Below, one piece after another: positions 6,508 to 60,895 of a DNA stretch of 64,000 bases (position 1 is the first letter of the stretch; each line of letters starts with the position of its first letter). A program made the translations under genes and the position numbers. A model generated the notes under the pieces. The model saw only the letters and a program-made list of their open reading frames with translations. It was not told where the DNA came from and did no database searches. Location: NCBI GenBank assembly GCA_964036045.1, contig OZ038383.1, positions 6,154,430-6,218,429 on the forward strand, read 5' to 3'. Source of the stretch: Eutreptiella sp. 'Long Island Sound 2002' (lineage: Eukaryota > Euglenozoa > Euglenophyceae > Eutreptiales > Eutreptiaceae).

Positions 6508-6510
6508 CTA
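6467..6510 (-). promoter_or_regulatory. Gag-pol UAG and downstream RNA structure, A1
   Basis: Gag ends in UAG (6508-6510) and pol continues in the same frame. Downstream, CCCAC-GGGA-GTGGG and ACCT-CGG-AGGT can form two hairpins enclosed by GAGGAG/CTCCTC. The spacing from UAG to the first inner hairpin is seven bases. The segment is identical in A3 (60852-60895). I infer stop-codon readthrough, as used by some retroviruses. Confidence 0.55.
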
Positions 6511-9500: not shown

Positions 9501-9616
9501 GTAGGGGCAGCAGGTAAGCCTCTGCTACCATAAAGAAGGTCCCTACCAGGACCGGCCCCCGCTGTGCCCCTTCTGCCTGTAATCCCCGCTGACTTGCTCC
9601 GGATCAATGCTTGCAT
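6508..9616 (-). pseudogene. gag: A1 gag, broken by one UAG and one frameshift
   Basis: Near-identical to the intact A3 gag (60893-64000). The likely start is the ATG at 9614-9616 at the edge of the LTR. A UAG at 9236-9238 replaces a UCU serine codon of A3. The frame then runs from about 9235 to near 6770, where one extra base relative to A3 shifts it; the authentic carboxy end is in the frame of 6508-6978. Parts present: a Cys/His-rich stretch and a coiled coil in the first third, the gag core (Trp- and charge-rich, about 7450-7900), a C-x2-C...H...C zinc knuckle, and a Gly/Lys-rich nucleic-acid-binding tail. A protein starting at an internal ATG (9142) could still cover most of the core. Confidence 0.88.
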
Positions 9617-19276: not shown

Positions 19277-19985
19277 GAAAGATGTCCTTGATTTATGCCC
19301 TAGATATTTTGATGTATTCCTGCAGGTTTTGTAGTTGAAAACCCAAACCAAAGCAGCAAGTAGAGCAAGAACAGGATGTGGATCGAATCAATGATTGGTT
19401 TTGGAATCCAGTGTAACACAGAAGGGCTGCAGATAGACAAAGCAGGTTTATACACAAAGATTCAATCACAAATGGATAATACAAAAGATTTTATATGAAA
19501 ATTGGTCTGACTCTTGCTTCAGAGATTGCATTAGGCACTTCATGTGCACTCTTTTGGGTGAAATGGTGCTGGTTAGCAATGTGGGGCATAGATGTCAGGA
19601 CCACACAGAAAATGACTTGGCCAAGCAACTGCATTCAGAAACAGTTACAAAGTAGGACCACAATAAGTGGTAGAAACAATTGAGTATAGGGGTCTTGGGG
19701 TGGGAGACCACTAGGCTTAACCTCCAAGGCCTAAAGCATGAAATGCCTATTTTATTTCGGTATATCCTCCATGAAGGAAGGTACCTCCGCTCAGTTGAGT
19801 GGTAGGGGTGAACTTCATGGGGGGCTAGGGTCACAACCCTAGTTACTTTGAGAAAGTGTACTTTAGGCAACAAAAGAGAGATAAAAACACCTCCGTTTGT
19901 CTTAGCATAAACAAAAGGGTTTTAAGGGGGGCTTGGCCTGGATCAAGCCCTCCAAGAAAGACATGGCAGTGACCTTTTCTTACTC
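19277..19985. repeat. 709-bp direct repeat, left copy
   Basis: Matches 29788-30496 end to end in the same orientation with about ten differences. It starts GAAAGATGTCC and ends TTACTC. It does not begin TG or end CA. The two copies bracket element C, 10,511 bases apart. It holds no protein-coding potential beyond short frames. Confidence 0.85.
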
Positions 19986-22693: not shown

Positions 22694-25600
22694 TTAGTTT
22701 CGCTTCTTACGCTGGGACATAGTCTCAGCACGGGTTAGGAGCTGCCCCTCGTTGTTCTCAACGAGGTAAATGCAGAAGATGGGGTTGATACTCCCATTTG
22801 GTTGTATGAAGGCTGACATAGGTTCCCAGGGCGCCTCAGACAACCCATAGCCATCCCACAGGGTTAGGAATTTCCAGCCCTGTTTATACTCGTGGCGAGC
22901 AATACCTGCAACCACGTAGTAACCATCGACTGCCATCTCATCGGCAGTCATTTCTTCGAGTTCGTCTGCCTCCTCTGGACTGGCAGCGTTCTCTAGGTCT
23001 ATACGTTCAACCTCACTGTCGCTGAGGCACCACTCATCCCAAGACAAGTCGTAAGGGGAGTGATAGTGCCTCAACTGCTTAGGTGCACACAGCAGTTCAC
23101 CACCTAGACGTGGACTGCACCTGACATGGATCCTGGATCCATCTATCCTGATGATACGATAGGGTCCAAAGTAAGGGTCCTGTAGGCAGTTACGTGGCCA
23201 GGAGGGTAGGCGTGAATGGTGTACCAAAACAAGGTCACCAACCTTGAAGCTGGCAGGTCGCCGTAGGCGGTTCCGTCGGCTCTGTTCACGGTCACGAATG
23301 TGTCTCAGGTTAGTACCAGCCTGGTTAGCCAGAGACTGCTTGTGTTCCAGCCAATCTCCCACAGGGCTCTGGAAGTCCTCAAGAAAGGGGGTTTTGAAGA
23401 ACCAAGCAGGTCGTCCTCCATGGAATAGTTTGTGGGGGGTGAAACCCGTAGAAGAGCTCCGCTGTGAGTTCATGGTCAGCACTGCCCAGGGCACTAGGCG
23501 TACCCAGTCCTTGGTGCGCCCCTGTTTCATCAGGATTCTTAAGTTTTGCTCCACCAGACGGTTCTGTCTCTCACAGAGAAGGTTAGACGTGTGGGTATAG
23601 GGCACACCTGTGGTTACCTCCAGGTTGAGGGCATTTAGCACTCGTTTGTACCACCCAGTGTCACTGCGGATGCGTACATCCTCATCAGAGTGCACCTGCT
23701 TAGGTGCTCCATAGGGTTCGAACCATTGTTCCACCAACATTTTCACAGTCTGCTCACCTGTGATTTTCTTATTGCAAGGGAACACACGGGTGAAGCGAGA
23801 TAGACCACAGGTGACCACGAGGCAACTATCATAGCCGCCAAAGCGTGGTAGGCCGTGGATGAAATCCACGTAGAGAAGAGAGTTAGCACAATAGGGTATG
23901 GGTAAGCTGGAGATCAGGCCCCTATCCCTACTGTCGCTCTGCTTGCTGGCATGACAGCCACAAGCATCCACAATGGTCTGCATACGCGACCTCAGTTCAG
24001 TCAGGGTTAGACTAGAGTAGAAACACTCACGGAAGAAGTCCACTGAGCGATTAGCGCCAGTGTGACCAGAACTGAGATGGGACCACTGTAGGCACCCATC
24101 CAGTCGTGCCTCAGGCACCACAATTCGGTCCTCGTAGAAGAGGTACTGATTGTTTTTATACCACTGGTGCCCGTCAATGACACGGGGTTCGAGACCAGTG
24201 CTGAGGGTTTGGAGAATTTCTTCATACTCTGACTGATAGTCGGTTAGACTCCAACCCTCCAGGATTCCGGCAGTGCGGATGGACAGGTCAAGCTGGACAT
24301 CCATACGCTGGAAGGCCTCTCTGGCGAGCGCCTCAGAGCTCTCACCAATAAGCGCATCGAAGTTGTTGCGCGATATATAGTCAGACAGTTCATTCTTTAT
24401 CCCGGGGATATGATGCACTGTCAGCCTGAACTGGCTCAGGTAAGTCCACCACCGTTTTAGCTTTGCTTTCTCTGGTGGTGGGCCTTTCTGAAAAGACTTC
24501 AGAGGCTCCTGGTCACACAGCCAGACAATAGGGTTAGATCCCAGGAGTCGGGATTGTGACGATAGCACCAACATACCGGCCAGGAGTTCCTGGTCATAGG
24601 TGCTGTAATTGGAACGCGCTTGGTTCCATTTCCAACTCCAGTGTCCCAGTGGCACCAGTCGCCACTCACTGGTAGGATAGTCATGTTTCAACGAACCATC
24701 ACGGTTCAGTCCAGTAGTACGATAATGGCAGTGGGTTAGTTCAGCGGGGTTAAGCTCCTGCCATTGGTAGATCGTACCTCCCCCCCCCTACATCGCTGGC
24801 ATCAGTGATCAGGACTATCTCGCCCTCAGGGCGGGGCACTCCCAGGCAGTTGGAGGAGGCAATCTTCTTATGCAACTCCTGGAAACACTCTTCCTCTCTG
24901 GAGGTCCACCTCCAGGGAGTAGTTTTCTTGATTAGGTCAGTAAGGGGTGCAGGGGAGTAAGTAAAATTGTGGATGTGACGCCGATAGAAATTACAGGCGC
25001 CCACAAAACTCCTCACATCGTGTAGGCCCTTCTTAGGGTCATCGCGAATCTGCATGTCCTATAGGGGCTGCATCTTAGACGCGGCTGGTTTCCACCAGCC
25101 ATACCCCACGTCGAAACCCAAATACTCCATCTCCTCTTTCATAAACTCACATTTTTGGAGTTTGATTCGGAGATGGTTTTCTTGACAGACAATGAAAAAT
25201 TCACTGAGGAGAAGGACATGGTCCTCTTTGGTATTAGTACCCAAACTCACGTCGTCGATGTGAGCCTCCATTTCTGCACCCCGAGAAATCAACTCTTGCA
25301 CTAGAGGCCTGCGCCTCAGTATGTACAAAATTTTGTTCATAAGCTCCTGGAAGAGCGCTGGGGCATTAGCCACCCCGAAAGGCATAACCTTCCACTTGAA
25401 GACACGACCCTTAGGGGTTATAAAGGCCAACAGCTCCTGAGCTGCGGCGGTTAGGTCCACCTGCCAGAAACCAGAGCGTTTGTCCATTTTGGTCTTATAC
25501 CTGCATTTGGCAATACGCTCCAGGGTGTTTTCCATGTTAGGAATACTCCCTGAGTGGTTCTGGGTTTTCTTGTTGACCTCACCATAGTCCACAACAAGAC

Positions 25601-27497
25601 GTAGGGCAGTCGACCCTGGTTTGGCAACAAGGAAACAGGGACTGCAGTGATGGGGATAGTCCCCGTGTTTGTACTCTTTGACGAGGCCAGCATCAATGCA
25701 TTCCTGGATCTGGCGCTCGATTTCTTCAACCTGTTCCTGTGGAGCGGGATAGGGACGACGCCTCACTCGCGTCTTTTCAAATTCTGGTTTCAATTTCAGG
25801 TCCATCTTGACCAGTTTTTTACAAGAAAGGGGAGGCGGCAAGGCGCCGAACACCTCCTCATAGGTTATCAGCAGTTTCTTCAGGCGGGGGTCAAGGTTAA
25901 GACTCTCGAGTTTCTGAAGGAAATCCTCCTCAGCGTGGAGGTTGCTTTTTCCATGTTCTTTCTTTTTCTGCCGATCAGCAGTTTCGGCAGGCACAGTACC
26001 ATCTTCCCACTCAGGGGGACATTGCTGCCCATAGTGTAGAGAATACACTAGAGGTATTTCAGGATCAGGCAGCGTATAGGACTCATCGTCCTCCTCAGAC
26101 CAGATGGAGGATTTCCAGGTCTGTCTGAGGTATTGCAGCCGCTCTTGGCGCTCAATACCTTCGGCCTTCAGGTACAACAGCCGCCGGAGTTCTTGAGTGT
26201 CATGCTCAGACAATGGCATGTTATTAGCAGCAGGCCGCGCCAGAGCATCAGCACTCCGGGCCACGGGTTCACCTGTGTGCATAGGCTGCATGTGTAGCAC
26301 TGGCTTCCCAACAGGGGAAGCGGGTTTAGAGGTTGACTCTAGATCTACCTCCTCTAGCAACAGCTTGGCTAGGAAGGCACTATGTTTTAGGTCAACACAG
26401 CTGGGATCAACAGAAGGATCAGTGCTGGCGATCTCAGACAGTTGGTCCTCAGCATCCTCTTTTACAGCTGCAGGTTCCAGATAGTCATCGAGAGACTCAC
26501 ACCCTGTAAGTGTGGCAGATAGGTGCTCAGGAGATCGATTTTTGAGATCATAAAGGGTCAGGCCACAATTTTCGGCCATGACCTCTTTCAGTAGCACCTG
26601 GTCTAGGTCACACAGGGGTACAGGATTGAGAGATCCATCCACGATGGACAGGAAACTGGCCCAGTCAGGGGCCTGCATAGCTGTGTCTGAGTCCTCAGGC
26701 ACATAGATGCGGCCGTCAGGGAGTTGCACTCTTCCCACGGTCATTCGATCTACCATACGGCGCCAGTAAGCATGTTCACGAGAGCAACCCCAGTCAGGGG
26801 TGCACATAACAACCCTTCCTCCCTCATAAGCGATTTTGGTTAGAACCTTCGCGAGCAGGGAGAAGGGAGGGTTAGCATACGCTAGGCCCATTGCTTTCCA
26901 GAAGAAACGGAAAGCATTGTTCAGTTGTTTCGAGCAGTACAACTGCATGATCGGCTGTTGTTGGCTCGCAAACAATTCCACCTGGATCTCATCCAGGTTT
27001 ACCTGAAGGGCCGCCAGTCCATTTTCAAGAACGTGACGGGCCAATTGGTAATTTTCAGTACGATACTTAGTCTTGGATACGTAGCGCAGCCCAGACTCTT
27101 TTCGTCCTGACAGCTCCAAAGGTGCGGAGAATAGCCCACTGCCAAAGTCGCAGTGCAAAGAATAGGGGCGCTGTAGGGACAGCATTTTTACCTGGGGGTT
27201 TCTTCGTAGGAAGTCGGTGCCAATGACAATGTCAAAGGCGTCGGTGTCCAGCACTCTGCAGTGTTGGGTCACGGTTTCGTCGCCCAGACATATAGTCACA
27301 TCGAACCCCCCCAAGGAATGGATGGTACGCCCATCCCCTACTCTTATGGCTACGGTCTTAATTTTCTTGAAAGTCTTTAGCAGGCGCCGGGCCACTATGG
27401 AAAGTGTTGCACCGGTATCAAGCACCGCTCGAAAAACCTGAACCCCGATTTTCACGAGGATCCAGAAAACCAAGTCCTCCTCCTCGGAGCCGCCCCC
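22694..27497 (-). pseudogene. pol: C pol: protease, Dam-like domain, RT, RNase H, integrase, chromodomain
   Basis: In the segment 27473-25059: protease DTG at residues 19-21; Dam-like domain at about 163-275 with ELFAS (166-170) and ANPPFSLL (200-207); RT with a catalytic motif HIDD where YVDD is usual. A UAG at 25059-25061 replaces a probable Gln codon. The same frame continues through the RT thumb and RNase H start (TDAS) to about 24785, where a poly-G run shifts the frame. Segment 24691-22694 holds the rest of RNase H, an integrase with H-x4-H and a CGC zinc pair, core residues in YVDF, HSDEDVR and CERQNR, and a chromodomain (WKFLTLWDGYG, WEPMSAF). It ends in UAA. It is not functional as it stands, but the amino-acid motifs are well kept. 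Confidence 0.9.
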
Positions 27498-27500
27498 CTA
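27455..27500 (-). promoter_or_regulatory. Gag-pol UAG and downstream hairpin, element C
   Basis: Gag ends in UAG (27498-27500) and protease follows in the same frame. An 11-base G-rich spacer leads to a 6-bp stem CGAGGA (27481-27486 on the complement) pairing with TCCTCG (27455-27460), loop 20 bases. The layout resembles that of A and D. Confidence 0.45.
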
Positions 27501-29387
27501 CTCCTCATCAGGGAACTTAACATCCACCCCTGCAGCAATGAGAGACTTGGCCATCCAGGCCAAGCGCCTCTTCTTAGAATTATTCCCCTCAGAGGTAGCG
27601 TTATCCCCTTGGGGGCGCTTCTTGGGGTCACCTGCGGCAGGAGCGGGTGTAGCAGCAGGAGTGGGTGTAGCAACGGGCGCTGATGAGCGCCTCTGGGGAT
27701 TAGGGGGTCCATTTTTGCCACCCCCCTTGCCACCTCCTTTACCACCTTTATCCCCATTCGGGGGATTTCTGGCGGGCGTTTGGGTCTTCTGGCGTTCCGC
27801 CTCTTGACGCTTGAGTTTGTCACTCTCACGTTTCTTGATGTGGCATTCGTCCTCGTAGTGACGACGTTTGCCACAGTAACCACAGGTGATGGTACACCTG
27901 AAATGGTCCTGATGGGTCACAGTTTTCCCATCTTTGGTATGCTGCTGACGTTTCATCTGCAGCATACAGCCACTGCGGAGATCGCAGTCAGAGGCATGAC
28001 AAGGTCCCCCCTTGTCATTGACAGGTCTGCAGTAGAACAGGGGGGGTGTACCTGCATCAGGTTTAACCTAATTCATGGCACGTAGGTTACCCCTCCCTTT
28101 ACCACCTCCCTGGTTGGTGTTAGTGGGATTTTTATGTCCTTTCCCTTCGCCACGTTCGGGGGTAGGGGTACCACCTCGTCCCAAATGCTTCTTGAGGAAT
28201 TTCTCCATGTGGGAGTCATTCTCTCTCTCAAGAGCTAGCTCAATCAAGAGATCCACCAGTTCATCGTACGAGTGGGTCCTGCTCTTCCTCTCAGAGGTGG
28301 AGCGGCAATCATCCCACGTAGGTTGGGGGATCTTACTCATGAGCCACAGGTGGGGCTCAGTGGCTCCGTAGGAGCCCACGTTCATCCTCGAAAACAAGTA
28401 CTCCAAGTCGCACACATACTCAGAAATTCGCGCAGCGGATGGAAACTCAGGGAGCATAGGTAGCTCCTCGATCTGTGTGCGTACGCTGAGGTCAGTCTCA
28501 TAGACTGGGAATGTTTTCTCCAACCTCAGGAGTACCTCTGCCCCGGTAGAACAGGTTTTCACAATCTGTTTCACCTGTTTTTGCAAAAATTTCTTTTTGC
28601 ATGAGCGTTTCAGCAGTGAACATTTGGTGGCCACATCCACATGGGATTGGCCAGTCAACAAAAGGAACTCTGCAAATTCTTCTGCCCATTCGGGCAGATT
28701 TTTGGGGTCGAACTCCGGCAGTTCCAGCTGGATGTTCGCCTGGGCAATAGGTCTGCCCGTCTTCCCAACCCCCGGAGTTAGGCCTGAAGGCGACACGCCG
28801 GCAAGAGGTGCCAGGGCTGACAGCCCTCTTTTCTCACTCTCTGTGACAGGCACGTCCTGTAGTTCAGCCATGGGCACAGTCCTGGCACGGGGGTGAAAGG
28901 GGCTGGGGCAGGTGACCTTAGGCAACAGCCTTGAGACCCTTGATCTCTTAAGATCTTCGGCCAGGGTACTCAGTCCTGGAGAGAGAGAGGGCAACTCTGG
29001 CTTGGGTAAGGGTTCTGCAATACCCAGTTTAGCCTTAATGGCCTCCGATAGGGCCGTCACATCTGGATCTTCTGACCCAGACAGGAGTTTGGCCAACAGC
29101 TCGGCCGTATGATCCAGGGCACCGTAGGTTCGCCTCGGATGATGTTGTTCTTCGACTCGCGTCGGGCCCACTTCGGGAGCCCTTGCGGTTGGACAACATG
29201 CTCTTGGATACTCAGGTCTTGGTCGTCTTGGCAGGGATGCAGTCTCGGCTCTGTCGGACGGCGGGCCAGAGTGCGCGTAGGACCCTAGGTCTGTACGTGG
29301 TCTGGAACCATGTACAGCCAATGGCTCCTCTCCATCTTCCCCACGAATGGATTTGTAGTACTCCTCATGTAGGATGTACTCATCCAT
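27498..29387 (-). pseudogene. gag: C gag with an internal UAG
   Basis: The first 439 codons (29387-28068) hold the gag core, with LPEWAEEFAEFLL and a set of conserved Leu/Trp positions, and end in a Gly/Arg-rich stretch. A UAG (28068-28070) follows, then the same frame continues to 27498 with a Cys/His-rich stretch and a classical CCHC knuckle (CGYCGKRRHYEDEC) before a Lys/Pro/Gly-rich tail. Without readthrough of 28068 the protein lacks its zinc knuckle. The UAG is either a nonsense mutation or a second recoding site. The start ATG at 29387 gives a sensible gag length. Confidence 0.82.
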
Positions 29388-29787
29388 CTTCTTTCTCAGT
29401 TCCTCATACTCCTCAGGGCCTTCAATCGCTGTTGAGGATGAAGCCGGACAGTTGGATCTGGATACTGAGGCTGCTACACGTCTGTGGAGATGACTGAAGC
29501 TGTCTCCACCGTGGGCTGCTAAGGCCTCGGTGGTAAGGCCTTTATTTCTTCCGCTTTTCTGCGTTCTGTATCTCCTTGGGACCCAGATGCGCCACTGAGA
29601 TGTTGTGGAGCTCGGTAAGGTGGTTCACTCATAGGGTGGGCCATGCTGCCCATTTGCACTTGGACAGTTCTGATGGGTCAGGTCCTGACGCTTGGCGTGG
29701 ACATGATGAACATGTTGTTGAGCTTTTTGTGCTGCACTTCTTCTCAGGGTCGGTTCAAAAGGTCACAAGGGACTGTCTCTGCTACCG
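29388..29787 (-). other. Element C 5' leader remnant
   Basis: Sequence upstream of the C gag with no long frame and no LTR match. It ends sharply where the 709-bp repeat begins at 29788. Confidence 0.5.
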
Positions 29788-30496
29788 GAAAGATGTCCTT
29801 GATTTATGCCCTAGATATTTTGATGTATTCCTGCAGGTTTTGTAGTTGAAAACCCAAACCAAAGCAGCAAGTAGAGCAAGAACAGGATGTGGATCGAATC
29901 AATGATTGGTTTTGGAATCCAGTGTAACACAGAAGGGCTGCAGATAGACAAAGCAGGTTTATACACAAAGATTCAATCACAAATGGATAATACAAAAGAT
30001 TTTATATGAAAATTGGTCTGACTCTTGCCTCAGAGATTGCATTAGGCACTTCATGTGCACTCTTTTGGGTGAAATGGTGCTGGTTAGGAATGTGGGGCAT
30101 AGATGTCAGGACCACACAGAAAATGACTTGGCCAAGCAACTGCATTCAGAAACAGTTACAAAGTAGGACCACAATAAGTGGTAGAAACAATTGAGTATAG
30201 GGGTCTTGGGGTGGGAGACCACTAGGCTTAACCTCCAAGGCCTAAAGCATGAAATGCCTATTTTATTTCGGTATATCCTCCATGAAGGAAGGTACCTCCG
30301 CTCAGTTGAGTGGTAGGGGTGAACTTCATGGGGGGCTAGGGTCACAACCCTAGTTACGTGGAGAAAGTGTACTTTAGGCAACAAAAGAGAGATAAAAACA
30401 CTTAAGTTTGTCTTAGCATCAACAAAAGGGTTTTAAGGGGGGCTTGGCCTGGATCAAGCCCTCCAAGAAAGACATGGCAGTGGCCTTTTCTTACTC
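29788..30496. repeat. 709-bp direct repeat, right copy
   Basis: Second copy of 19277-19985, offset exactly 10,511 bases with no net length change. The flank after it (TGTGT) resembles the flank before the left copy (TGTGA), a weak hint of a target duplication. Confidence 0.85.
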
Positions 30497-32452: not shown

Positions 32453-34213
32453 ATGCTTATTGCACCTTTGGTCCAAGACCTCCAAACCCGGAATAAAAGC
32501 GGTGCGCGCTTTGCAGCCAGATGCCACGTGAAACGCGTTCGAAGGAATCCAAGAGCAAGCGTGAGAAGCGTGCCAAGGAATCCAAGAGCCAGCGTGAGAA
32601 GTCAGCGAAGGAAGCCAAGCCAAAGAAGAAACGAAGATCTACGCGCAGCAGCAGCGACGACTACAGTGACGAATACACGGACAACGATGAATACTGGGAT
32701 TACAGATGGCCTGAAGCCGAAGACAAGGAGCTTGATTATCGAGTTGCCGGTGAAGAGGAGAGCTACAGGACTACCACTCAACGCTACGAGGAGACTCCTT
32801 ACTAGCGAAGCCGCACGACGGTGCGGTATCCTAGGAGCCATTCCCAGAACACAACACGAATTTTACGTGTGCATGAACTATCACAACACCCCCCTGCTCC
32901 CCCAGCGAGACTCCCTCACTTCCATGAGGTACATGCTCTTCCAAGAGAATAACCTGGTCACGTATCGGGGCACTACGGGAGCCATGATCTCTTGGGGAGG
33001 GTACTCCTCTTGGCGCTCCAAACACCCGGGACACAAAGTGGACCTCTCCGCCTCTCCCCGAAAAAAGCACAAAGGTGCCCCTCTCCCACCCTCCCCGGTG
33101 AAGGCTTGCTTCAACCCCCTCCCCGAACCACCTGATCCAGAACTGGTAGAAGTACACGCCCCGTCATCCACGCCGGACGTTGATGTAATGTTCGGGGTCT
33201 CCCTGCTTGGGAAAATACGGCACATTTCCTTGTTCAGCGCCCCCATGGCTAAGGTGCGAGTCTACCGAGTGAAATACGCGCATTACGAATCCGCGCTCCT
33301 TGCAGAAGGCTTCACTGTGTCCCAGCTCGTCTTTCACCCCGAGTGCCCCGACACGGCCGCGCGTGACAACCTTTTGGCTCCCGCCAACCCCCTAGTTTCG
33401 GAAGCCCAGGATTTCCTATCACGAGTCATCGAGGCGGCGACTGCCTACGGCAGCGCAGAACAACTAAGTCTCGCGAGGGACCATTACTTGTCCACAAGCA
33501 AGCCTCTCTCCCTCACAGAAAAGGTCGCACAACTCCACCTCCAAACGGGGAAAGTTTTCGACCCCATCTCGGAAATAACAGGAGCCTTCATATCCAATGA
33601 GTTTTTCTCAGAAGAAGAGGAAGCCCTGGTGATGTCCTACAGTGCAGATGAAAATCACCAGTGGCTGTCCGAGGGGCACCGCACAATGCTTCATTTCGGA
33701 TTCAGGTACAATCCAGAATCAAAAGAAGTTGAACCTTTTGAACCGACCCCTCCTGAGTTTATTCAAGCGATTGGGCTACGGGCATTCTCTGCCTGCGCCC
33801 AGGTGCTGCCCTCCTCTGTCTTATGCCCCAATATGTGGTCAGTCGCTCGATACGAACCTGGCAGTGGCCTGAGGAGCCACGTAGACGTCCCTCAGCTAGG
33901 CCCTTATGTCCTGGATGGCTCCTTTGGGTCAGGTGCGGAAATGGTTTTCGAACCGCGTCCCCTCCCCGGATCCACCCTCTTTAAGAAAAGGCAAAAAGTC
34001 TTCCTACAGCGCCGCAGCCTCCTCCTAATTTTTGGGGAAGCCCGCGACAAATGGAAACACCAAATCCCAGCTCGCGACTATGACACAGTGGAGAAGCGGC
34101 GCATTCCCCGAGACTCCAGGGTGTCCCTTGTCTTCCGTCACACTGGTGTAGGAACGGGCCTCCATACGACATCCTCAGAGCCCCCGGACCCAGAGCAACA
34201 TGAGACGAATTAA
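32453..34213 (+). CDS. LINE ORF1 with AlkB-like dioxygenase domain
   Basis: The open frame spans 586 codons; the ATG at 32873 (residue 141) is a more likely start because the upstream part overlaps another ORF and is low in complexity. Residues about 375-563 match AlkB-family proteins in order: FISNEFFSEEEE opener; NMWSVARYEPGSGLRSHVD with iron ligands H476 and D478; an FGSGAEMVFEPR strand; H536 in WKHQIPAR as third ligand; and RVSLVFR (556-562) as the 2-oxoglutarate-binding R-x5-R. The order and YEPG...HVD spacing are closest to ALKBH8-like enzymes in my recollection. AlkB enzymes remove methyl groups from nucleic acids, so a role in repairing or demethylating the element RNA is inference. 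The residues 200-370 region is Pro-rich then unassigned. It ends in UAA. Confidence 0.85.
   Translation: MLIAPLVQDLQTRNKSGARFAARCHVKRVRRNPRASVRSVPRNPRASVRSQRRKPSQRRNEDLRAAAATTTVTNTRTTMNTGITDGLKPKTRSLIIELPVKRRATGLPLNATRRLLTSEAARRCGILGAIPRTQHEFYVCMNYHNTPLLPQRDSLTSMRYMLFQENNLVTYRGTTGAMISWGGYSSWRSKHPGHKVDLSASPRKKHKGAPLPPSPVKACFNPLPEPPDPELVEVHAPSSTPDVDVMFGVSLLGKIRHISLFSAPMAKVRVYRVKYAHYESALLAEGFTVSQLVFHPECPDTAARDNLLAPANPLVSEAQDFLSRVIEAATAYGSAEQLSLARDHYLSTSKPLSLTEKVAQLHLQTGKVFDPISEITGAFISNEFFSEEEEALVMSYSADENHQWLSEGHRTMLHFGFRYNPESKEVEPFEPTPPEFIQAIGLRAFSACAQVLPSSVLCPNMWSVARYEPGSGLRSHVDVPQLGPYVLDGSFGSGAEMVFEPRPLPGSTLFKKRQKVFLQRRSLLLIFGEARDKWKHQIPARDYDTVEKRRIPRDSRVSLVFRHTGVGTGLHTTSSEPPDPEQHETN
32521..32805 (+). 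CDS. Small charged ORF, unknown (94 aa)
   Basis: I do not recognise this product. The first half is strongly basic with repeated KES(K/Q)-REK-type units, and the second half is acidic and Tyr-rich. It overlaps the upstream extension of the LINE ORF1 in another frame. Its composition looks more protein-like than that of the overlapping frame, so it may be a LINE leader ORF or the end of a host exon into which the LINE inserted. Confidence 0.3.
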   Translation: MPRETRSKESKSKREKRAKESKSQREKSAKEAKPKKKRRSTRSSSDDYSDEYTDNDEYWDYRWPEAEDKELDYRVAGEEESYRTTTQRYEETPY

Positions 34214-34756
34214 GGAACCTACACTCGGCGTCACCCTTCTGTGCACACGAGACGTGGTCTTCGCTTTGAGACCCCAGATACCCTCCATCACCGCTATTGC
34301 GTGTTCTCAGGCATGGCAAGGCCATCGCTCTGCCACTCCCCTTGAACGTAACATGAATTCCTTAACCCCTGTGACCGCCAGGTATGCCCTGACCGGGCTA
34401 ATCTGTGCTCACTGTGTACCAGACCACAAAATCCTGTGTTCCCCCTTGAGGGAAGCTCTGATGAGTCTACCGAATGCTACCCGTCCCCGTATTCTTTCTG
34501 CCCCCCTTCAGCCCGTCAGTACCACCGCAGTAGCAGTAACATGAGACGGTGTCAAGAGGTCCTCGCCCGCGTGGGCGTGCACGGTGCCTCCCTCACCGCC
34601 ATCGTCTCTCGCATCGCGGAGATTCTCCCTGTGGAGCAAGCACACATCAATCCGAGAATATTGGTCCCAGACACAAGTGTCTCCACAGACCTGGCTATAC
34701 ACCCCTCTCTTCGCACTGCCTGTGATACGGCCTTACGCCACTCGCCCAAAGCATAG
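34200..34756 (+). CDS. LINE inter-ORF frames (unknown, overlapping)
   Basis: An ATG at 34200 overlaps the ORF1 stop by 14 bases and runs to UGA at 34542-34544. That UGA overlaps a second ATG (34541) as ATGA, whose frame runs to 34756. I recognise no domain. The stop/start overlaps look like termination-reinitiation sites, as some LINEs use to make ORF2. Alternatively this is a broken amino end of ORF2 with frameshifts. Confidence 0.35.
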
Positions 34757-37700
34757 GCACAAGCACTTCACTCTCGGATTTCTGCACTAGAACAGTGCGA
34801 ACCCGACCCCTCAATACAGAATGAGGGCCCTGCCCACATACCAACGCTTCTGACACCGGACTCCCCACTGGGTGCCCGCTATTCTTCCATTCGGACACCC
34901 TCCTTCCCCCCTCCCCCCCAAGTGCACAAGCCCTTCAAACCTAAACGCTTGCGCCGCCCCCCCCCTTCTCTTGCCACCGTCCCGGCCATCCGTGTCGTGT
35001 CCTTCAACACAGCAAAGAGCCAGAACACACCCGCGGCAATCCTGCACTTCCTAAACGAGGGGTATGACATTATACTCCTTCAGGAGCTCAACTCTCCCCC
35101 TCTCCTCCCACAGCGGTACGCCTTCGGCAATGACCGCGCTAAGGTCTTCCCAAATGTCTGCGGCCACAGACACGGGCTGTCGGTCATTGCAGGCCCGCGC
35201 ATCGCGAGATATACCAGCTGTGTCCCGCCCAGAGACAGCGACGGCCTTATCTGTGGTGCCAAAATATCCCTACCGGAGGCAACTCCCTTACACGTCTTCT
35301 CAGTTTACTCCCCCCCGGTGCGCACGGGGGCCCCAGCTCCGTACCGCCACACCATACAGCGAGTTCTTGCTTCTTATTTCCACGATCATCCCAATCACAT
35401 CCTGGGGGCTTATTTTAACTGCGTTCTGGATCCCGAACTTGACCAGCACAGCTTGGTCGATCTACATGAGTGGCACTGGCTCACAGGGGAAGTGGAGTAC
35501 CTCCCATCTAGGTTGGTGGACACTTTCAGGTCAGAGCACCCCTCCCTCAGGCAGTACACCCGCTACGCAAGCGACCGCTGGGACAGCGAAGCAAGGCTGG
35601 ATTACATCTTTGCGTCCCCTCGCCTGGTATCGCACTTTCCCCTTCTGGATGCTTCGGTCCTCACGGACTACACAATCTCTGACCACCACCCAGTGGTTGC
35701 GGTCTTCCAGTGCCCCTCCCCGATCCTTTTGTCTCAGCCCCCACTCCCCCCTTGCATTTCTCGGAAGCTTTCTAGTGACGAAAAGCAACAATTCTCCAAC
35801 AGCATACGGCTCATCTCCGACTGGTGCCGGGACCTCCAGGACGCCCCTGCCAGGGCCCCATTGGAAGAGGTCATCGCCGCCACTGATTCTCTCCTTATGC
35901 AGGTTGGGTCTGCGTACCACAAAATCACGCGTCCGAAGCCGCAGCGCAAGGACCAAGAGGGCTACGGCAAGCTCCGGAAATTATTACGCTCACCCCCGCC
36001 TCCTTCTTCCCCAGCATTTCCCGAGCACATTGCGGAAGTTCAGTCAGTGGTAAACACCCTACGGTCCTCGGACGAAACCAAAGCAAAGAGAAAGCTTCAC
36101 AGTAGTCTGGTCCGAGGGGTCCAGATGAAAACCACAGTTGCTGGTACCCTCTGCCCTAAAGACCTAGAGCCTCTCGTAGTCAGAGATCCAGCCACCAAAG
36201 AGCTCCTGAGTGACCCGCCGGATGTAGCTAAAGTTTTCGGGGACACCCTGCTTCATCTTGGAGGGCATCCAGATTACGCCCCCCCCCAGGACTTCGTCGA
36301 CGAGGTCCTGTCCCACTCCCCCACATGCCCCGTTTCTGCCAAGAACGACCACATACCTCCTGTGACCTGGCAGGAGTTCCAGAGCCACTTAAAGCACAGT
36401 AAGCCATCAAAAGCCGGGGGGGCGGACAAAACAAACAACTACGTCCTGGCCCTCTGTCCGGATCCCATGCAACGTTTTTTCCACTCCATTTTAAACCGCT
36501 TCCTCCACTCGCCGCTGCCGCCGCACTGGCTATGCGCAAAAATATGTTTGCTTTATAAAAAAGGCGACCCTTTCTCCCCTTCCAACTACCGTCCTATTGC
36601 CCTCTTAAACTGTATTTACAAACTCTTGGCCACTTTTGCCTGCAAACACCTGCGCGCTCAGGCTTTTGCACACGACATCATTTCAGAAATCCAGCACGGT
36701 GGCCTTCCCGGCCACCAATGCGCTGATCATCTGTATCACCTCAAAGCCCTTTATGCAAAATCGAAGAAGAGCTACTCGCTGTTCATCGATTTCAATAAAG
36801 CCTTTAATTCAGTGCCTCATGGCACACTCTGGACCGTCCTCGAACGGGCCAATTTTTCTGCTTCCACAATTTCTCTCATAAAGCAACTATACTCCTTCCC
36901 TCAAGACAGCCCCATCATCAATGGCCGCACTCCCCACGCATACCTCCAAACCAGGGGCCTCCGGCAAGGATGTCCCCTCTCCCCCCTACTCTTCATTCTC
37001 TATCTCAACTCCCTCTTCCACCATTTTTTCGCCACTGTGCCCCCCCCCCGGGCAAATGCCCGCACTAGCCACCACGCCTACATCGACGACATCCTGATCA
37101 GAAGTGAGGACGTCAACTACGTCCAAAACAGCCTCAACTACTTCGATGGGCCAGCCAGGGACTGGGGACTGGACATGAATGTGTCTAAGACCGAAGTCCA
37201 CGCCAATGGCACAGCCCCCCAAAAAGAGTTTCTGACACCCAGGGGCTCGGAGTTCCACACGTACAACCAAAAAACGGGTCGCCCGCACACATGCTATAAA
37301 TACCTCGAGGTTTATCTTTTTACTTGCCACCAGGCAAAGGGCCTGTTTCACATGCTCAAGGCGGAAATCCAGAGTTATTTTGCCCGGCTCTCTCCCTGCC
37401 TCTTACACTTAGTGAGAAGGTCCGACTGACGAACTCTCAGCTGGTCCCAGCACTCGCCTACCGCTTAATCACCCACTCTCTTTCCCCCAACCAGCTCGAG
37501 AAGCTTCAGGCACTTATCTGGGCGGGGGTCGCGTCTCGCAGCATCACACGTCTAGTCTCCCCCAAAGACCGTTTCGCGGCTTGCCCAAAGGGAGGGTTGG
37601 GAATGAAGTTCCTACCGCACAGCGTCCACGTTGCCACAGTGAACTATGGACTTCGGGCCCTTTGCGGCCTTGCCCCAAAGTCAGTTGGCCCCCTGTACGT

Positions 37701-38947
37701 CCAGTCTTTACTTAGCTCGAACCAGAGGGCCTCGGACCCGGTGCAATACTCTTTTATGGACTCCATCCATGTCCTTGGCATATCTTTCCACAGCATAGGC
37801 CCGTGGAGACCCACTGCTATTCGGGATCTAACGCCTGGTACCCAGCTAACCGTTAGGTTCAAGTCAGGACAGGCCACAGGAAGAGTGACCGAGGCCACCT
37901 CCAAATGGGCCAACGTCGCGTTCCACGACGGGGTCTACTCGGTGGATACCCACACGTCCTACACCATGCACATGCCATGCCACGCCGTCCTGGATTACTC
38001 CCGCCCCTCTCACTTCCAGCTAGTCCCTGAATTTTTGCGCCCTCAAGAGACCATCCCCGAACCCCCAGCGCCACCGCACAACGCACACGCACTGGGAATC
38101 AGCCAACACGGCCATCTCTTCGCTCTGCAGGCACAACACTACCTAGAGAAGAAGTCTCTCGACGAGTGGGGATGCCACGATGCTGCGGAGGCACTAACCC
38201 GGCCGCCGACCCCCGGCCTACAGCGGGTGTGGCTATATTCCGATGGCTCCTCCGGTGAGTCCGGCCATGCGGCCGCCATCACGGCCTTTCTACCCGACGG
38301 TACAACCAGAGTCCTGTGCCTATCCTCACCGCATCCCTCTTCTCTGGGTTCGGAGTTCTGGGGGGCGGTAGCAGCCATTCGCTGGATCCACAGGGAACTT
38401 TCCCAATACGAAGTATGTTTGTTGATTGACAACGAACAGGTGGTGTCCACCCTCCAGAAATGCCAAGTCCGTAGGCCCAGCCCGTTCCAAGACGACACAT
38501 GGACCGTCGCCGTACACAGCGCCCTACGTCTCATTACCAACCCCCTCCACATCATGTGGATTAAAGGTCACGCCAATTTTATTGGCAACGAAATCTGCGA
38601 CCATTTTTCTAAATGGGCAGCTCACAGCCTGATTTTTACCCCGGACCTCCTCCCCCCCCCCCCCACTGGGCTCAGTGGCGGTACACCACCTGCCTGTCCT
38701 CCACAAGTTTAAGGTACAGCAATTCCGCCACCTATTGCCGCGGCATTCCCATAGCAACATAGCGGTTGGCCCCAGCTTCAGCCTATACAACAAAACTTCC
38801 TGGTTGTCGTCCCTGTTTTTCAAACTGGCGTCCGGGTGCTACAATGTGCACGGGTACCAGTGGAGCAATATGCTCCACGACTACCACTGTTCCAGGTGCG
38901 GACAGCACCATGTAAGTGCGGCTAACCCCCATCTGCTCAGATTTTAG
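34757..38947 (+). pseudogene. LINE ORF2: endonuclease, RT, RNase H, C-terminal Cys/His motif
   Basis: Segment 34922-37429: exonuclease-endonuclease-phosphatase domain at residues about 22-263 with QEL (E55) and SDHHPV (253-258); the catalytic GDFN motif reads GAYFN (162-166). RT at about 480-790 with NYRPIALLN, IDFNKAFNSV (Asp 623), QGCPLSP and YIDD (720-723). One shift near 37395 leads to 37324-38712, which has a thumb region and RNase H from about 38230 (YSDGS, GSEFWGAVAAI, LLIDNEQV, KGHANFIGNEICDHFSK). A second shift in the C-run at about 38653 leads to 38675-38947 with CSRCGQHH...HLL, the usual LINE carboxy zinc motif, cut short. The open stretch 34757-34921 joins it upstream. Confidence 0.85.
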
Positions 38948-39330: not shown

Positions 39331-39431
39331 GTAAGTCAAGAAATACCCTTGGTATTGCTGCTTGCCTGCGTGCGTGAGCTGCGTGGAGTTTGATTTTCTA
39401 AAGAGAAACATTTTAAATTTTTGGTTTTCAG
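39331..39431 (+). other. Possible GT-AG intron in the T-poor insertion
   Basis: The donor is CGC-GTAAGT and the acceptor a T-rich tract ending TTTTCAG, 101 bp long. An upstream frame from ATG 39145 (62 codons, Pro/Ser-rich) would join in phase to the open T-free sequence. Openness there carries no information because stop codons cannot occur without T. Confidence 0.3.
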
Positions 39432-41260
39432 AAAGTTTTCAAAGGCACGGAAAAACGGCAGGGGTTTTTAGCAAAGGAAAAGAGGACAAAAGGAAAAACA
39501 AACAGCACAGCACCGCAGGGCAGCACGGCACCGCAGGACGCGGCACAGGGCGCAGGACACCACAGGACAACGCACAGCACAGCAAGACACCACGACACAC
39601 CAGAGCAGCACCACCACCGCAGAACGCCCAGGGAGACACCACAACGCACAAGGACACGCCACAGCACGAGGCACCAACAACAGCGCAGACCACACTGGCG
39701 CCGCACGACAGGCCGCAGGAGGGCAAAGCCAACACAAACAGCACCGCAAAACGACAGCAGAGCACGACAGCACAGCACCACACGACAGCACAGCGCCACA
39801 GCACACGACACAGGGAAGCAGGGCACCACAGCCAGCACAACAAGGCACCGCAGCGCACAGAGCGGAGAAGACAGGGAACGCACAGCACGAGGAAAAGAGC
39901 ACCACAGCGCGCAGACACCACCACCGGGCCAAAGACAGCACAGCCAACCAACAGCACAACACAGCACAGCACGACAGCCCACAGGAGGGCAAAGCAAGCC
40001 CCAACAGCACCGCAACACGACGGCAGAGCACAACAGCACAGCACCACGCGACAGCACAGCACCACAGAACACGACACAGGAAAGCAGGGCACCACAGCAA
40101 ACCACACCAACCACAGGGAAGCAGACCACGCGGCCAGACAGGGACACCGACACCGAAACACGCCACCAGCAGACAGCCACGGGCCACCAGACCCAGCACC
40201 GCACCACGGCACACCACAGGAAACAGCACAACACACAGCAGCGCACCACAGCACCAGGCGCCAGCAGCAGCAGCACGCACCACACGAACAGCACAACACG
40301 AGCGCACCAGCACAGCGAAGCACAGCACCGCACAGAACGGAGAGCACAGGGAACGCACAGCACAGCACCCCGAGACACACACAGCACAAGGCAGAGCGGC
40401 GAACAACAGCACGCACCACGGCGCCACGACAAAACATACACAGCACAGAGCACACAGCGCGGGGGAACACCGCAAAACACAGTGCCGCAGAGCACAGGGC
40501 CCCAGGGCGACGGGCAGCGCCAAAGGGCACGGCGCAACAAGCAGCGGCACCACACGAGCGCAACACAGCACACGACAGCAGAACACCGGGCGACACAACG
40601 CGCAGCAGCGCGGCGCAGCACCGCACCCAGGGAAGCACAGCACCACACGGCACACAGCAACGAGCGGCAGGAACGAAAACCGCGAAACACAAAGGGGGGG
40701 GGGGGGGGGCAGCAACCACGCGGGAGCAGCCAACAACCAGGCGGAAAGCACGAAAGAGCGACAAGCGCGCGGAGAGCCGAGAAACGGAAGGCAAACAGAG
40801 CAAACACCGCAAGCGCCGAGGCCCAGGGCACCCGGGGCCGGAAACCAGAGCAAACCAGAGACAACGGGGGCGCACAGAGGAAGAAGAAGAAGGAGGAGAA
40901 AAAAAAAAAAAAAAACACGAAGGCACCAAGCAGGAGCGACGAAAACCGCGAGACACAAAAGGGGAGGGGGGCGGGGGAGCAACCACCAAAGAGCAGCCAA
41001 CGGCCAAGCGGGAGACACAAACGAGGCGGGAGCGCACGGAGAGCCAGGCAGCGGGAGGCCGAGAAAAACAACCAACGAGGAACGGCAACAGCAGCGAAAG
41101 AGAGAGGGGCAACCCTGGCCCGGAGGGGGCCAGGCAAAGCAGGAAGACAAAGCGGCCAAAGGAAAAGGTGAGGCGCACCAGAACGCGCCCGGGAGGCCGG
41201 CCCGCCCGACCCGGCCAAGCAAAGCACGCACACGAACACACACCACACGCCACCGCCGCC

Positions 41261-43556
41261 AGCGGACCCCAGCCAGGAGTGGCGGGGACCGCCCACCACC
41301 AGCGGCAGCGAAACCCAGCCAGGAGTGGCGGGGAGTAGCACACAGGGACCTCCGCCAGGAGTGGCGAGGGACCAACCACACCACACACCAACCACAACCC
41401 CAACAACACACCACCGCCACACACCAACCACAAGCCCAACAACACACCACCACCACACACCACACACCACACACCACACACCACCGCCGCCAACGGACCG
41501 CAGCCAGGAGTGGCGGGGACCGCCCACCACCAGCGGCAGCGAAACCCAGCCAGGAGTGGCGGGGAGTAGCACACAGGGACCTCCGCCAGGAGTGGCGAGG
41601 GACCAACCACACCACACACCAACCACAACCCCAACAACACACCACCGCCACACACCAACCACAAGCCCAACAACACACCACCACCACACACCACACACCA
41701 CACACCACACACCACCGCCGCCAACGGACCCCAGCCAGGAGTGGCGGGGACCGCCCACCACCAGCGGCAGCGAAACCCAGCCAGGAGTGGCGGGGAGTAG
41801 CACACAGGGACCTCCGCCAGGAGTGGCGAGGGACCAACCACACCACACACCAACCACAACCCCAACAACACACCACCGCCACACACCACACACCACACAC
41901 CACACACCACCGCCGCCAGCGGACCCCAGCCAGGAGTGGCGGGGAACGCCCACCGCCACCGGCAGCGAAACCCAGCCAGGAGTGGCGGGGAGTAGCACAG
42001 AGGGACCTCCGCCAGGAGTGGCGAGGGACCAACCACACCACACACCAACCACAACCCCAACAACACACCACCGCCACACACCACACACCACACACCACAC
42101 ACCACCGCCGCCAGCGAAACCCAGCCAGGAGTGGCGGGGAGTAGCATACAGGAACCTCCGCCAGGAGTGGCGAGGGACCAACCACACCACACACCAGCCA
42201 CAACCCCACCAACAAACCACCGCCACACACCACACACCACACACCACCGCCGCCAACGGACCCCAGCCAGGAGTGGCGGGGAGTAGCACACAGGGACCTC
42301 CGCCAGGAGTGGCGAGGGACCAACCACACCACACACCAACCACAACCCCAACAACACACCACCGCCACACACCACACACCACACACCACACACCACCGCT
42401 GCCAGCGGACCCCAGCCAGGAGTGGCGGGGAACGCCCACCGCCACCGGCAGCGAAACCCAGCCAGGAGTGGCGGGGAGTAGCACACAGGGACCTCCGCCA
42501 GGAGTGGCGAGGGACCAACCACACCACACACCAACCACAACCCCAACGACACACCACCGCCACACGGCACACACCACACACCACACACCACCGCCGCCAG
42601 CGAAACCCAGCCAGGAGTGGCGGGGAGTAGCACACAGGAACCTCCGCCAGGAGTGGCGAGGGACCAACCACACCACACACCAGCCACAACCCCACCAACA
42701 AACCACCGCCACACACCACACACCACACACCACCGCCGCCAACGGACCCCAGCCATGAGTGGCGGGGACCGCCCACCACAAGCGGCAGCGAAACCCAGCC
42801 AGGAGTGGCGGGGAGTAGCACACAGGGACCTCCGCCAGGAGTGGCGAGGGACCAACCACACCACACACCAACCACAACCCCAACAACACACCACCGCCAC
42901 ACACCACACACCACACACCACACACCACCGCCGCCAGCGGACCCCAGCCAGGAGTGGCGGGGAACGCCCACCGCCACCGGCAGCGAAACCCAGCCAGGAG
43001 TGGCGGGGAGTAGCACACAGGGACCTCCGCCAGGAGTGGCGAGGGACCAACCACACCACACACCAACCACAACCCCAACAACACACCACCGCCACACACC
43101 ACACACCACACACCACACACCACCGCCGCCAGCGAAACCCAGCCAGGAGTGGCGGGGAGTAGCACACAGGGACCTCCGCCAGGAGTGGCGAGGGACCAAC
43201 CACAACACACACCAACCACAACCCCAACGACACACCACCGCCACACACCACACACCACACACCACACACCACCGCCGCCAGCGAAACCCAGCCAGGAGTG
43301 GCGGGGAGTAGCACACAGGAACCTCCGCCAGGAGTGGCGAGGGACCAACCACACCACACACCAGCCACAACCCCACCAACAAACCACCGCCACACACCAC
43401 ACACCACACACCACCGCCGCCAACGGACCCCAGCCAGGAGTGGCGGGGACCGCCCACCACCAGCGGCAGCGAAACCCAGCCAGGAGTGGCGGGGAGTAGC
43501 ACACAGGAACCTCCGCCAGGAGTGGCGAGGGACCAACCACACCACACACCAGCCAC
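41261..43556. repeat. Tandem array of CCAGGAGTGGCG-containing units
   Basis: About twenty or more imperfect units in higher-order blocks of roughly 115 to 231 bp; the first two periods are 231 bp and the next is 195 bp. Each block has copies of CCAGGAGTGGCGGGGA and of CCGCCAGGAGTGGCGAGGG, followed by an AC-rich run (CCACACACC type). CGCCA-GGAG-TGGCG can form a small hairpin. T occurs almost only within GGAGTGG, GAGTAGCA and CCTCC. Confidence 0.9.
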
Positions 43557-44764
43557 AGAGCAAGCGCCAGCCGAGGGAAGGCAAAGGGAGAAACAGCGAG
43601 GCCGCCCCCCCCCCCCGCCCCCCCCCCCCCAAAAAAAAAAAAAAAAAAAAAGGGGGCGGGGAAAGGGGGGCCGCGCGAAAAGAGCCCACCGCCACCAAAC
43701 CGCCCGCCAAAAACACAAAAGGAGGCCAACCCCCCCCCCCAGAAGGCACCGAAGACAGGACCCCCAAACAGGCACAGGGGGACCACCCAGCAAAAACCGG
43801 CAACACCAAGCCAGGAACAGCGGCCCAGCGGGAAAAGGGGCACCGAAACAAGCAGACAAAAAAAAAAAAAAGCCAGCAGCCCAGCCAAAAAGAAAGGAGA
43901 CGGGGGGAGAGACCAGAAGGCCCGGGACGGGGACACCAAGCAACCGGAAAAAAAAAAAAACAAAAGAAAAAAAAAACACACCCCGACAACCCAGCCAAGA
44001 AGGGCGGGGCACAGCCGAGACCCGGGCCCAGCACGCACGCCCACACCGCGGCGGGGGGCAAGGGAAACGCGCACGAAACCACACACGTCCCGAAAGCGGG
44101 CCGACACCAAAGCCCAACCACGAACACCACAAACAGCCGGCAAAAGAGGGACAACACCACAAACCGAGCCCAAACACACCCACCCAAGACCCCAGCCACG
44201 ACGGGCAGGTGAAAACAAAACCCACGACCAACCGCAACCCGGACCCAACCACCAACGCAAGCCAACAGTAGGAAACCCAGTGCCCACAGCCCAGGCACTG
44301 AGGCAGCCCGCGCCATGCAGGTGACCCGGCCAAACGAGATCCGGAGCCCGGGGGTAAGGCTGCATCCTAAGGCCAGCGCTGCTTTGGGACTCGAGGCGGA
44401 GCGTGCGACACCCAAGCGCCTCGGAACCCTAGTACCAAGAACATGCATGCATGCCTTGGGAACGGGATACGCCAGGAAGTCCGGTGAACCCCTAGGGTTC
44501 CGCCCAAAGGAGGGGACGTGCGCAAGCACGGGGGCCCACCCTCCCGGCGAGACAAGCACGTCACGCTGGCGGCGATCAGCCCTCCCGGTGTAGCCCGGGG
44601 CCGCTTTGTTGGGGGCCAAAAGTCAGGTCTAGCGGGATGTAAGCCGCCTCCCCTCTTCACGCGCGGAGCCTCTTCCTGTTCGTCACAGGGGCGACGCCAG
44701 GGGGAACCATGGGGCGCCTCACCACGACCGAGTGCACCTACCTACCTACCTTTCTGATATGCCG

Positions 44765-54861: not shown

Positions 54862-55365
54862 AAGGCTGAAAAATTACGGAAACATTATGATAATAAAACC
54901 CTGTTGATTCCTGATATTCCGATATATAAATCTCCGCTGGCGGTGCCTCGGTTCTGAATATGGCCGCTCAGAGCCGGAATGGCCAAACCTATCATACTAT
55001 CACATCAGGTTAGATCAGGTGGATGGGAGAGTATGATATCAGCCAATGGCGGCTTGCCGGCACATAGATACACACCCCAAGTGACCCCAAGATGGCCACG
55101 GGGGTCCGAACCGAAGGCTGAAAAATTACGGAAACATTATGATAATAAAACCCTGTTGATTCCTGATATTCCGATATATAAATCTCCGCTGGCGGTGCCT
55201 CGGTTCTGAATATGGCCGCTCAGAGCCGGAATGGCCAAACCTATCATACTATCACATCAGGTTAGATCAGGTGGATGGGAGAGTATGATATCAGCCAATG
55301 GCGGCTTGCCGGCACATAGATACACACCCCAAGTGACCCCAAGATGGCCACGGGGGTCCGAACCG
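54862..55365 (-). repeat. 252-bp tandem duplication in the LTR
   Basis: 54862-55113 is repeated at 55114-55365 with no differences seen. The unit spans the TATA-like element, doubling the putative promoter. A1 LTRs have one copy. Confidence 0.9.
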
Positions 55366-60892: not shown

Positions 60893-60895
60893 CTA
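60852..60895 (-). promoter_or_regulatory. Gag-pol UAG and downstream RNA structure, A3
   Basis: Base-for-base the same as 6467-6510: UAG, seven bases, hairpin CCCAC/GTGGG, hairpin ACCT/AGGT, and enclosing GAGGAG/CTCCTC. Here both the gag and pol frames up to the site are intact, so this is the better copy for testing readthrough. Confidence 0.55.

Follow-up and report, generated by a model that had tools for sequence, protein, structure and literature searches.

We analysed a 64,000-nucleotide stretch of DNA (hereafter the window) from the euglenophyte Eutreptiella sp. 'Long Island Sound 2002' (assembly GCA_964036045.1, contig OZ038383.1, positions 6,154,430 to 6,218,429), which contains on its forward strand a copy of a long interspersed nuclear element (LINE), a retrotransposon of the non-long terminal repeat (non-LTR) type. 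From 5′ to 3′, this copy comprises a truncated first open reading frame (ORF1), a small middle ORF and a disrupted ORF2 encoding endonuclease, reverse transcriptase (RT) and RNase H regions. The C-terminal part of ORF1 holds a predicted Fe(II)/2-oxoglutarate dioxygenase domain of the AlkB type (33563-34138 (+), residues 371-562 of the open frame), and comparison with other copies indicates that this domain belongs to the LINE and has been multiplied with it.

The AlkB assignment is supported by a profile match and by the catalytic residues. The search for an AlkB match called for by the original prediction, which had been made from the nucleotide letters, matched residues 414-562 to the Pfam family 2OG-FeII_Oxy_2 (PF13532) at E 6.9e-11 with 43.2 bits, the curated cut-off being 31.2 bits; this match and that to the solved human ALKBH8 (3thp) delimit the domain. 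That prediction had also named five residues, and all of them are present at their positions in sequence and alignment: the iron ligands H476-x-D478 (33878-33886), the distal iron ligand H536 (34058-34060) and R556-x5-R562 (34118-34138), a motif characteristic of the AlkB family. It had set the start of its feature at 32873 (Met141) while counting residues from 32453, so that its coordinates and its numbering had different origins; the residues themselves were correct. The N-x-Y pair is a common, not a defining, AlkB feature. Its tyrosine is kept in the window copy, while the asparagine has been replaced; since the solved Schizosaccharomyces pombe protein P8A3.02c (presumably Ofd2) also lacks this asparagine, with a Gln at the same position, AlkB membership does not depend on the pair. 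We therefore class the domain, from its sequence, as a genuine member of the AlkB family.

To place the domain within this family, solved structures were searched with the single sequence and with a profile. The single-sequence search gave human ALKBH8 (3thp) as the best match (residues 371-549, E 4.2e-11), followed by P8A3.02c (1.6e-6), ALKBH3 (0.02) and ALKBH7 (0.1). ALKBH8 was also ranked first by the profile search (E 1.3e-11), ahead of P8A3.02c (about 5e-8) and the weaker ALKBH5 (0.008), ALKBH6 (0.01), ALKBH7 (0.04) and ALKBH3 (0.6). The core thus appears closest to ALKBH8, as judged by search score and not by tree. Among the proteins that the alignment search gave with E ≤ 0.01, P0114 (484 amino acids, 31% identical) alone lies outside the LINE family; it has ALKBH8 as its best solved relative (E 2.8e-23) and retains the asparagine of N-x-Y. 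Our searches for relatives rank candidates by shared short exact words, and in this alignment search the 7,997 top candidates were scored; further relatives may exist.

The likeness to human ALKBH8 and the protozoan ALKBH8s (PMC4051686) covers most of the AlkB core. Unlike these proteins, the LINE domain sits in an ORF1 for which the searches revealed neither an RNA recognition motif (RRM) nor a zinc finger or methyltransferase: the window copy has no cysteine after residue 562, where a C-terminal zinc finger would lie, and Pfam gave no further match within the window ORF. According to the available part of PMC4051686, an RRM is present in the human, plant and Cryptosporidium ALKBH8 proteins and absent from the Tetrahymena and bacterial ones, and core-only ALKBH8s also miss the C-terminal zinc finger and the methyltransferase. 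In the same source, the Tetrahymena ALKBH8, consisting of the AlkB core only, performed DNA repair and tRNA hydroxylation in vitro. An RRM upstream of the LINE core, plausible by eye at residues 231-310, was rejected for now, as searches of Pfam and of the PDB with an E limit of 10 gave no match. A profile comparison with the N-terminus of P0114 scored 11.7, while 60 shuffles reached 18.7; the profile was shallow, and a very diverged RRM could escape such a comparison.

A protein search (35 relatives) and an alignment search (61) together identified 76 LINE ORF1 relatives besides P0114. Of these, 43 extend over one or more of the positions examined in the catalytic region and represent 327 member sequences (sum over the search tables); the other 33 end before this region. 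No alternative domain in the place of AlkB was seen among the 76. In four relatives (P0022, P0024, P0028 and P0110), the match ends before residue 540 and over 40 further residues follow. One of them, P0022, has its AlkB part (up to residue 500) fused through a deletion to the middle ORF, with 81% identity to 34152-34538; the ends of the other three resemble the same DNA translated in a different frame (by tblastn for P0024, partly by tblastn for P0028 and by eye for P0110). In P0008, a chimera with a match to a Gypsy element over its N-terminal 304 residues, the frame runs beyond the ORF1 stop into the same downstream LINE DNA. A search of other copies for the AlkB domain beside ORF2, proposed at the outset, thus found it joined to the same downstream LINE sequence in two of them, P0008 and P0022, both read as protein sequences. 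Scans of viral contigs with the ORF1 and ORF2 alignments, and of genome contigs with the ORF1 alignment, found no relative.

A second subfamily (P0026, P0027, P0086, P0100, P0106, P0109, P0112 and P0115), 45-59% identical overall, shares the same upstream part, and its AlkB part is covered by P0026 and P0086, which keep all five catalytic residues at 45-47% identity. An ORF2 relative of 53% identity, P0063, probably belongs together with this subfamily, to judge from their similar divergence, and we infer that all ORF1 and ORF2 copies share one genome. Possible ORF1/ORF2 pairs of similar divergence, P0009/P0039 (83% and 83%) and P0029/P0057 (76% and 77%), lend this weak support; six of 28 close ORF2 relatives possibly lie on the same contig as an ORF1 relative, which is suggestive only, as contigs span megabases. 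Taken together, the copies indicate that the AlkB domain is a part of the LINE. Both outcomes that the original prediction had named as fatal to it, absence of the domain from all other copies and failure of the profile search, were looked for and did not occur.

Regarding the constraint on the domain, H, D, H, R and R are all kept in 23 of the 30 relatives that cover the five catalytic positions. The catalytic half (455-562) is 56-57% identical between the subfamilies (P0026, P0086), and the part of the first half covered by P0100 and P0105 is 41-46% identical. As a proxy, replacements lying one base change from the window codons were scored by their BLOSUM62 mean against the neutral expectation, with relatives below 70% identity and P0114 excluded. 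Within the AlkB domain (371-562), replacements seen in a single relative had a near-neutral mean of -0.45 (n=252; expected -0.53, p 0.23), while those common to four or more relatives had a mean of +0.48 (n=23; expected -0.53, p 0.0012). This domain-wide result was stable to transition bias and to a local filter. The same classes gave -0.46 (n=506) and +0.14 (n=58, p 0.0028) over the whole ORF1, and the class of four or more was not significant over residues 115-230 (-0.25, n=12, p 0.25). ORF2, used as a positive control, gave -0.48 for unique replacements (n=387), +0.32 for those of two or three relatives (n=34) and +0.26 for those of four or more (n=34, p 0.0042). The pattern suggests constraint on the AlkB domain, as a protein-level proxy for purifying selection, and overall it is close to what is expected of a LINE, with dead copies drifting and an active lineage constrained.

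The reading frame that carries the domain (32453-34213 (+)) is open over 586 residues. Comparison with relatives places the onset of LINE family homology at about residue 115 (~32795), although the BLAST matches of a few relatives extend to residue 84. The in-frame 5′ part, residues 1-114 (32453-32794), is not recognisable as LINE sequence, and residues 61-114 gave scores not above those of shuffles with five of five tested relatives. These shuffle-level scores and the homology onset make it likely that residues 1-114 are flanking DNA, in frame by chance. The truncated LINE ORF1 itself (32795-34213), its C-terminal 472 residues, is 45-98% identical to the relatives that cover the AlkB part. 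The 948-residue relative P0016 has 638 extra residues upstream of the start of ORF1 homology, and with a threshold of E 1e-5 none of these matches anywhere in the window, from which the window copy is judged to be 5′-truncated. Such truncation is frequent among LINE copies. By overlap, a complete ORF1 would exceed 1,100 residues (638 plus about 474), no single relative spanning the whole. In its N-terminal part, no Pfam domain was found in P0016, P0021, P0033 or P0018, and P0009 gave one match at E 0.22.

The original prediction placed ORF1 before an ORF2 encoding endonuclease, RT and RNase H, which we confirmed; it had called the two directly adjacent, and this part did not hold, as a small middle ORF of 114 amino acids (34200-34544 (+)) lies between them. 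The ATG of this ORF overlaps the end of ORF1 and its stop overlaps the ORF2 ATG, an arrangement that suggests coupled translation. It shows a weak zinc-finger match below the cut-off (E 0.011). ORF2 starts with MRRCQEV at 34541, the exact start in 15 of the 28 close ORF2 relatives, and in the window copy this first section (34541-34756 (+)) is closed by a TAG at 34754-34756, a site occupied by Tyr in P0036. The frame holding the endonuclease and RT then runs over 34757-37429. Its APE-type endonuclease region (35000-35686 (+)) matches Exo_endo_phos with residues 82-310 at E 6e-4, below the curated cut-off, and a precomputed match to this Pfam family exists for 21 of the 28 relatives; LINE-1 endonuclease structures are matched weakly (E 0.004-0.006). 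The RT (36557-37204 (+)), with YIDD at 37079-37090, matches RVT_1 at E 2.3e-32, and its best solved relative is human LINE-1 ORF2p (E 1.3e-18). The RNase H domain (38224-38619 (+), RNase_H E 8.8e-7) lies in another frame of the window copy (37300-38712). A probable C-terminal tail with a Cys/His-rich CSRCGQHH (38642-38947 (+)), proposed from sequence inference only, follows a second frame change. The only organism-named protein in the ORF2 search came from Aphanomyces euteiches, at 24% identity.

The APE endonuclease, the LINE-type RT, the multiple copies and the 5′ truncation identify the element as an APE-type non-LTR LINE. Given the TAG, the two frame changes (at about 37.35 and 38.65 kb) and the altered endonuclease motif (AYFN, against GDFN in P0036, P0039 and P0041), the window copy is very likely dead, though its AlkB frame is open. 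Its 3′ end was not located; a search for a target-site duplication gave only a 12/13 match, chance-like and inside the ORF2 tail. Right after the LINE lies a strand-asymmetric region (39335-44622), with an AT skew of about 0.9 over 40-44 kb and tandem arrays of 195-, 231- and 486-base units; its overlapping open frames of 1,600-1,700 residues look like a composition effect. This region may be the 3′ end of the LINE or a flanking satellite.

Several other elements share the window. In two different Gypsy pol frames, protease and RT are separated by a segment that includes an NPPF motif (26598-27050 (-) and 48770-49222 (+)). These segments match the Pfam family PF05869 (Dam adenine methyltransferase) weakly, below its cut-off (E 0.0022 and 9.2e-5, respectively), and are 24% identical, with a mutual match of E 5e-7; of the two, only the second is matched by a PHROG DNA methyltransferase (E 0.014). 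Direct repeats of 709 bp (19277-19985 and 29788-30496, 98.7% identical) are probably the LTRs of the Gypsy element to which the frames at 22694-29624 belong. A chromodomain Gypsy element is present in two copies (1535-9616 and 55920-64000), which are 96.3% identical over 8.1 kb. At 54862-55365, a 252-base unit is repeated twice at 100% identity, which is either a very recent duplication or an assembly artefact. No match to Rfam at gathering thresholds, and no tRNA, was found within the window. A scan for the dinoflagellate spliced-leader sequence, allowing up to 3 mismatches, gave no hit, which says nothing for or against a dinoflagellate host.

LINEs copy single-stranded RNA by target-primed reverse transcription, a step that base lesions and methyl marks can block or regulate. 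We propose that this multi-copy LINE family encodes, in ORF1, an ALKBH8-like AlkB domain that dealkylates nucleic acid of the element itself, with its RNA as the most likely target, and we give this proposal an even chance of being correct. An ancestral ORF1 would have captured an ALKBH8-like core, in which neither RRM nor zinc finger is detected. By analogy with other LINEs, whose ORF1 proteins are RNA-binding as a rule according to the accessible text of PMC4120745, the ORF1 protein would bind the LINE RNA. The domain, with iron and 2-oxoglutarate, would then oxidatively remove alkyl or methyl lesions or marks from the RNA template or from single-stranded cDNA in the same ribonucleoprotein. 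As a result, target-primed reverse transcription could be unblocked, or the RNA could escape control by methylation.

Several observations weigh against this proposal. First, the substrate is not predictable from the sequence. Secondly, the Asn of N-x-Y, named as 2-oxoglutarate-stabilising in the available part of PMC9289625, is Ala in 41 of the 43 LINE proteins that cover the position (Pro and Ser in the others), and the enzyme may consequently be less active or inactive. At least one catalytic residue (H476, D478, H536 or R562) is changed in seven of the 30 relatives mentioned above, and the first half of the domain (371-454) is only 31-32% identical between the subfamilies (P0026, P0086). 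Thirdly, the evidence for constraint is weaker for AlkB than for ORF2. The purifying selection sought in the original prediction finds protein-level support in the conservative replacements common to four or more relatives and none in those common to two or three, which are not conservative (-0.77, n=82); for the catalytic half taken by itself, replacements common to four or more relatives do not reach significance (+0.18, n=11, p 0.083). Finally, AlphaFold models failed to resolve a double-stranded β-helix fold, with a mean predicted local distance difference test score of 35.6 for the C-terminal 478 residues and 27.8 for the 948-residue P0016.

The ORF1 protein might instead act on DNA and clear lesions, or methyl groups on adenine or other bases, from the target site or from the newly made DNA copy of the element, against silencing by the host or by rivals. 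ALKBH8s of several organisms repair DNA in vitro and, in the part of PMC4051686 available, the tested enzymes in general showed higher activity towards etheno lesions than towards methyl ones; the two Gypsy elements with weak Dam-like matches and NPPF hint that adenine methylation may matter in this genome. The Dam matches are, however, below the Pfam cut-off and LINE ORF1 proteins as a rule bind RNA, and we consider an eraser of DNA marks unlikely, while keeping it in view.

A catalytically dead domain, retained as a nucleic-acid-binding or merely structural part of ORF1, would agree with the nearly general Asn to Ala replacement and with the divergence between subfamilies of the first half, where we take the nucleotide lid of AlkB proteins to be located. 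The iron ligands and both arginines are nevertheless kept in P0026 and P0086, both of the distant-subfamily members that cover them, and the Gln of P8A3.02c at the asparagine position argues in the same direction. In our estimate, loss of catalysis is quite unlikely.

The domain could also hydroxylate the tRNA wobble uridine, as ALKBH8 does, and thereby favour translation of the element. ALKBH8 is its best solved match and, within the accessible text of PMC4051686, modification of tRNA in vitro by the core-only Tetrahymena enzyme indicates that an RRM is not always needed; set against this, the tail of the window copy is without cysteines where the zinc finger would be, and a role in tRNA modification seems improbable. 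More speculative, and very improbable as it stands, is a contest over methylation in which a Dam-like adenine methyltransferase of the Gypsy elements would write marks and the LINE AlkB would erase those on its own RNA or DNA, both enzymes being transposon-encoded. That a host AlkB exon lies beside the LINE by chance, or was transduced once with a single copy, would have suited the window alone, where the open frame probably begins in flanking DNA, but is refuted for practical purposes by the 76 relatives, several with a long in-frame ORF1 upstream and two with LINE sequence downstream, and by a second AlkB-bearing subfamily, apparently in the same genome as the 53% identical ORF2.

The original prediction knew of no standard description of such an arrangement. 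For AlkB in a LINE this stands, none being described among the literature matches listed (few subscription journals; bioRxiv and Repbase not included); for retrotransposons in general it does not, as orchid Ty3/Gypsy elements, the only case among those matches, provide a precedent (PMC9289625). In the available part of that source, an extra ORF of Phalaenopsis elements of the Ogre/Tat group encodes a paALKBH5-like protein with m6A demethylase activity in vitro. Both systems have a retrotransposon-borne AlkB domain with HxD...H and RxxxxxR. The orchid elements are of the LTR type, with a separate ORF that is ALKBH5-like and has N-x-Y intact, whereas here the element is a non-LTR LINE and the domain lies within ORF1, is ALKBH8-like, has Asn replaced by Ala and is known from sequence alone.

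Other retrotransposons offer more distant parallels. LINE ORF1 proteins of types I-V (RRM/zinc knuckle, L1 type, PHD, esterase and unclassified; PMC4120745) likewise precede an APE-RT ORF2 and may carry accessory domains; by Pfam, the present ORF1 has no RRM, zinc knuckle, PHD or esterase, and the accessible text of that source does not mention AlkB. The insect TRAS and Jockey LINEs have similarly captured a nucleic-acid enzyme of outside origin, which is an SF1 helicase and not an AlkB dioxygenase, AlkB being absent from the part of PMC6338049 available. Retrotransposons with captured cytosine methyltransferases (PMC5890265, as far as its available text goes) also carry a base-modifying enzyme, in their case a writer of DNA marks rather than an oxidative eraser.

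If the proposal that the LINE dealkylates its own nucleic acid is true, removal of marks would limit retrotransposition strongly enough for selection to act on it, and an AlkB-bearing LINE would offer a compact natural test system for mark removal. Non-LTR elements would then join plant RNA viruses and orchid LTR elements among the known captors of AlkB domains, by a route that, being ALKBH8-like rather than ALKBH5-like, looks independent in this LINE family.

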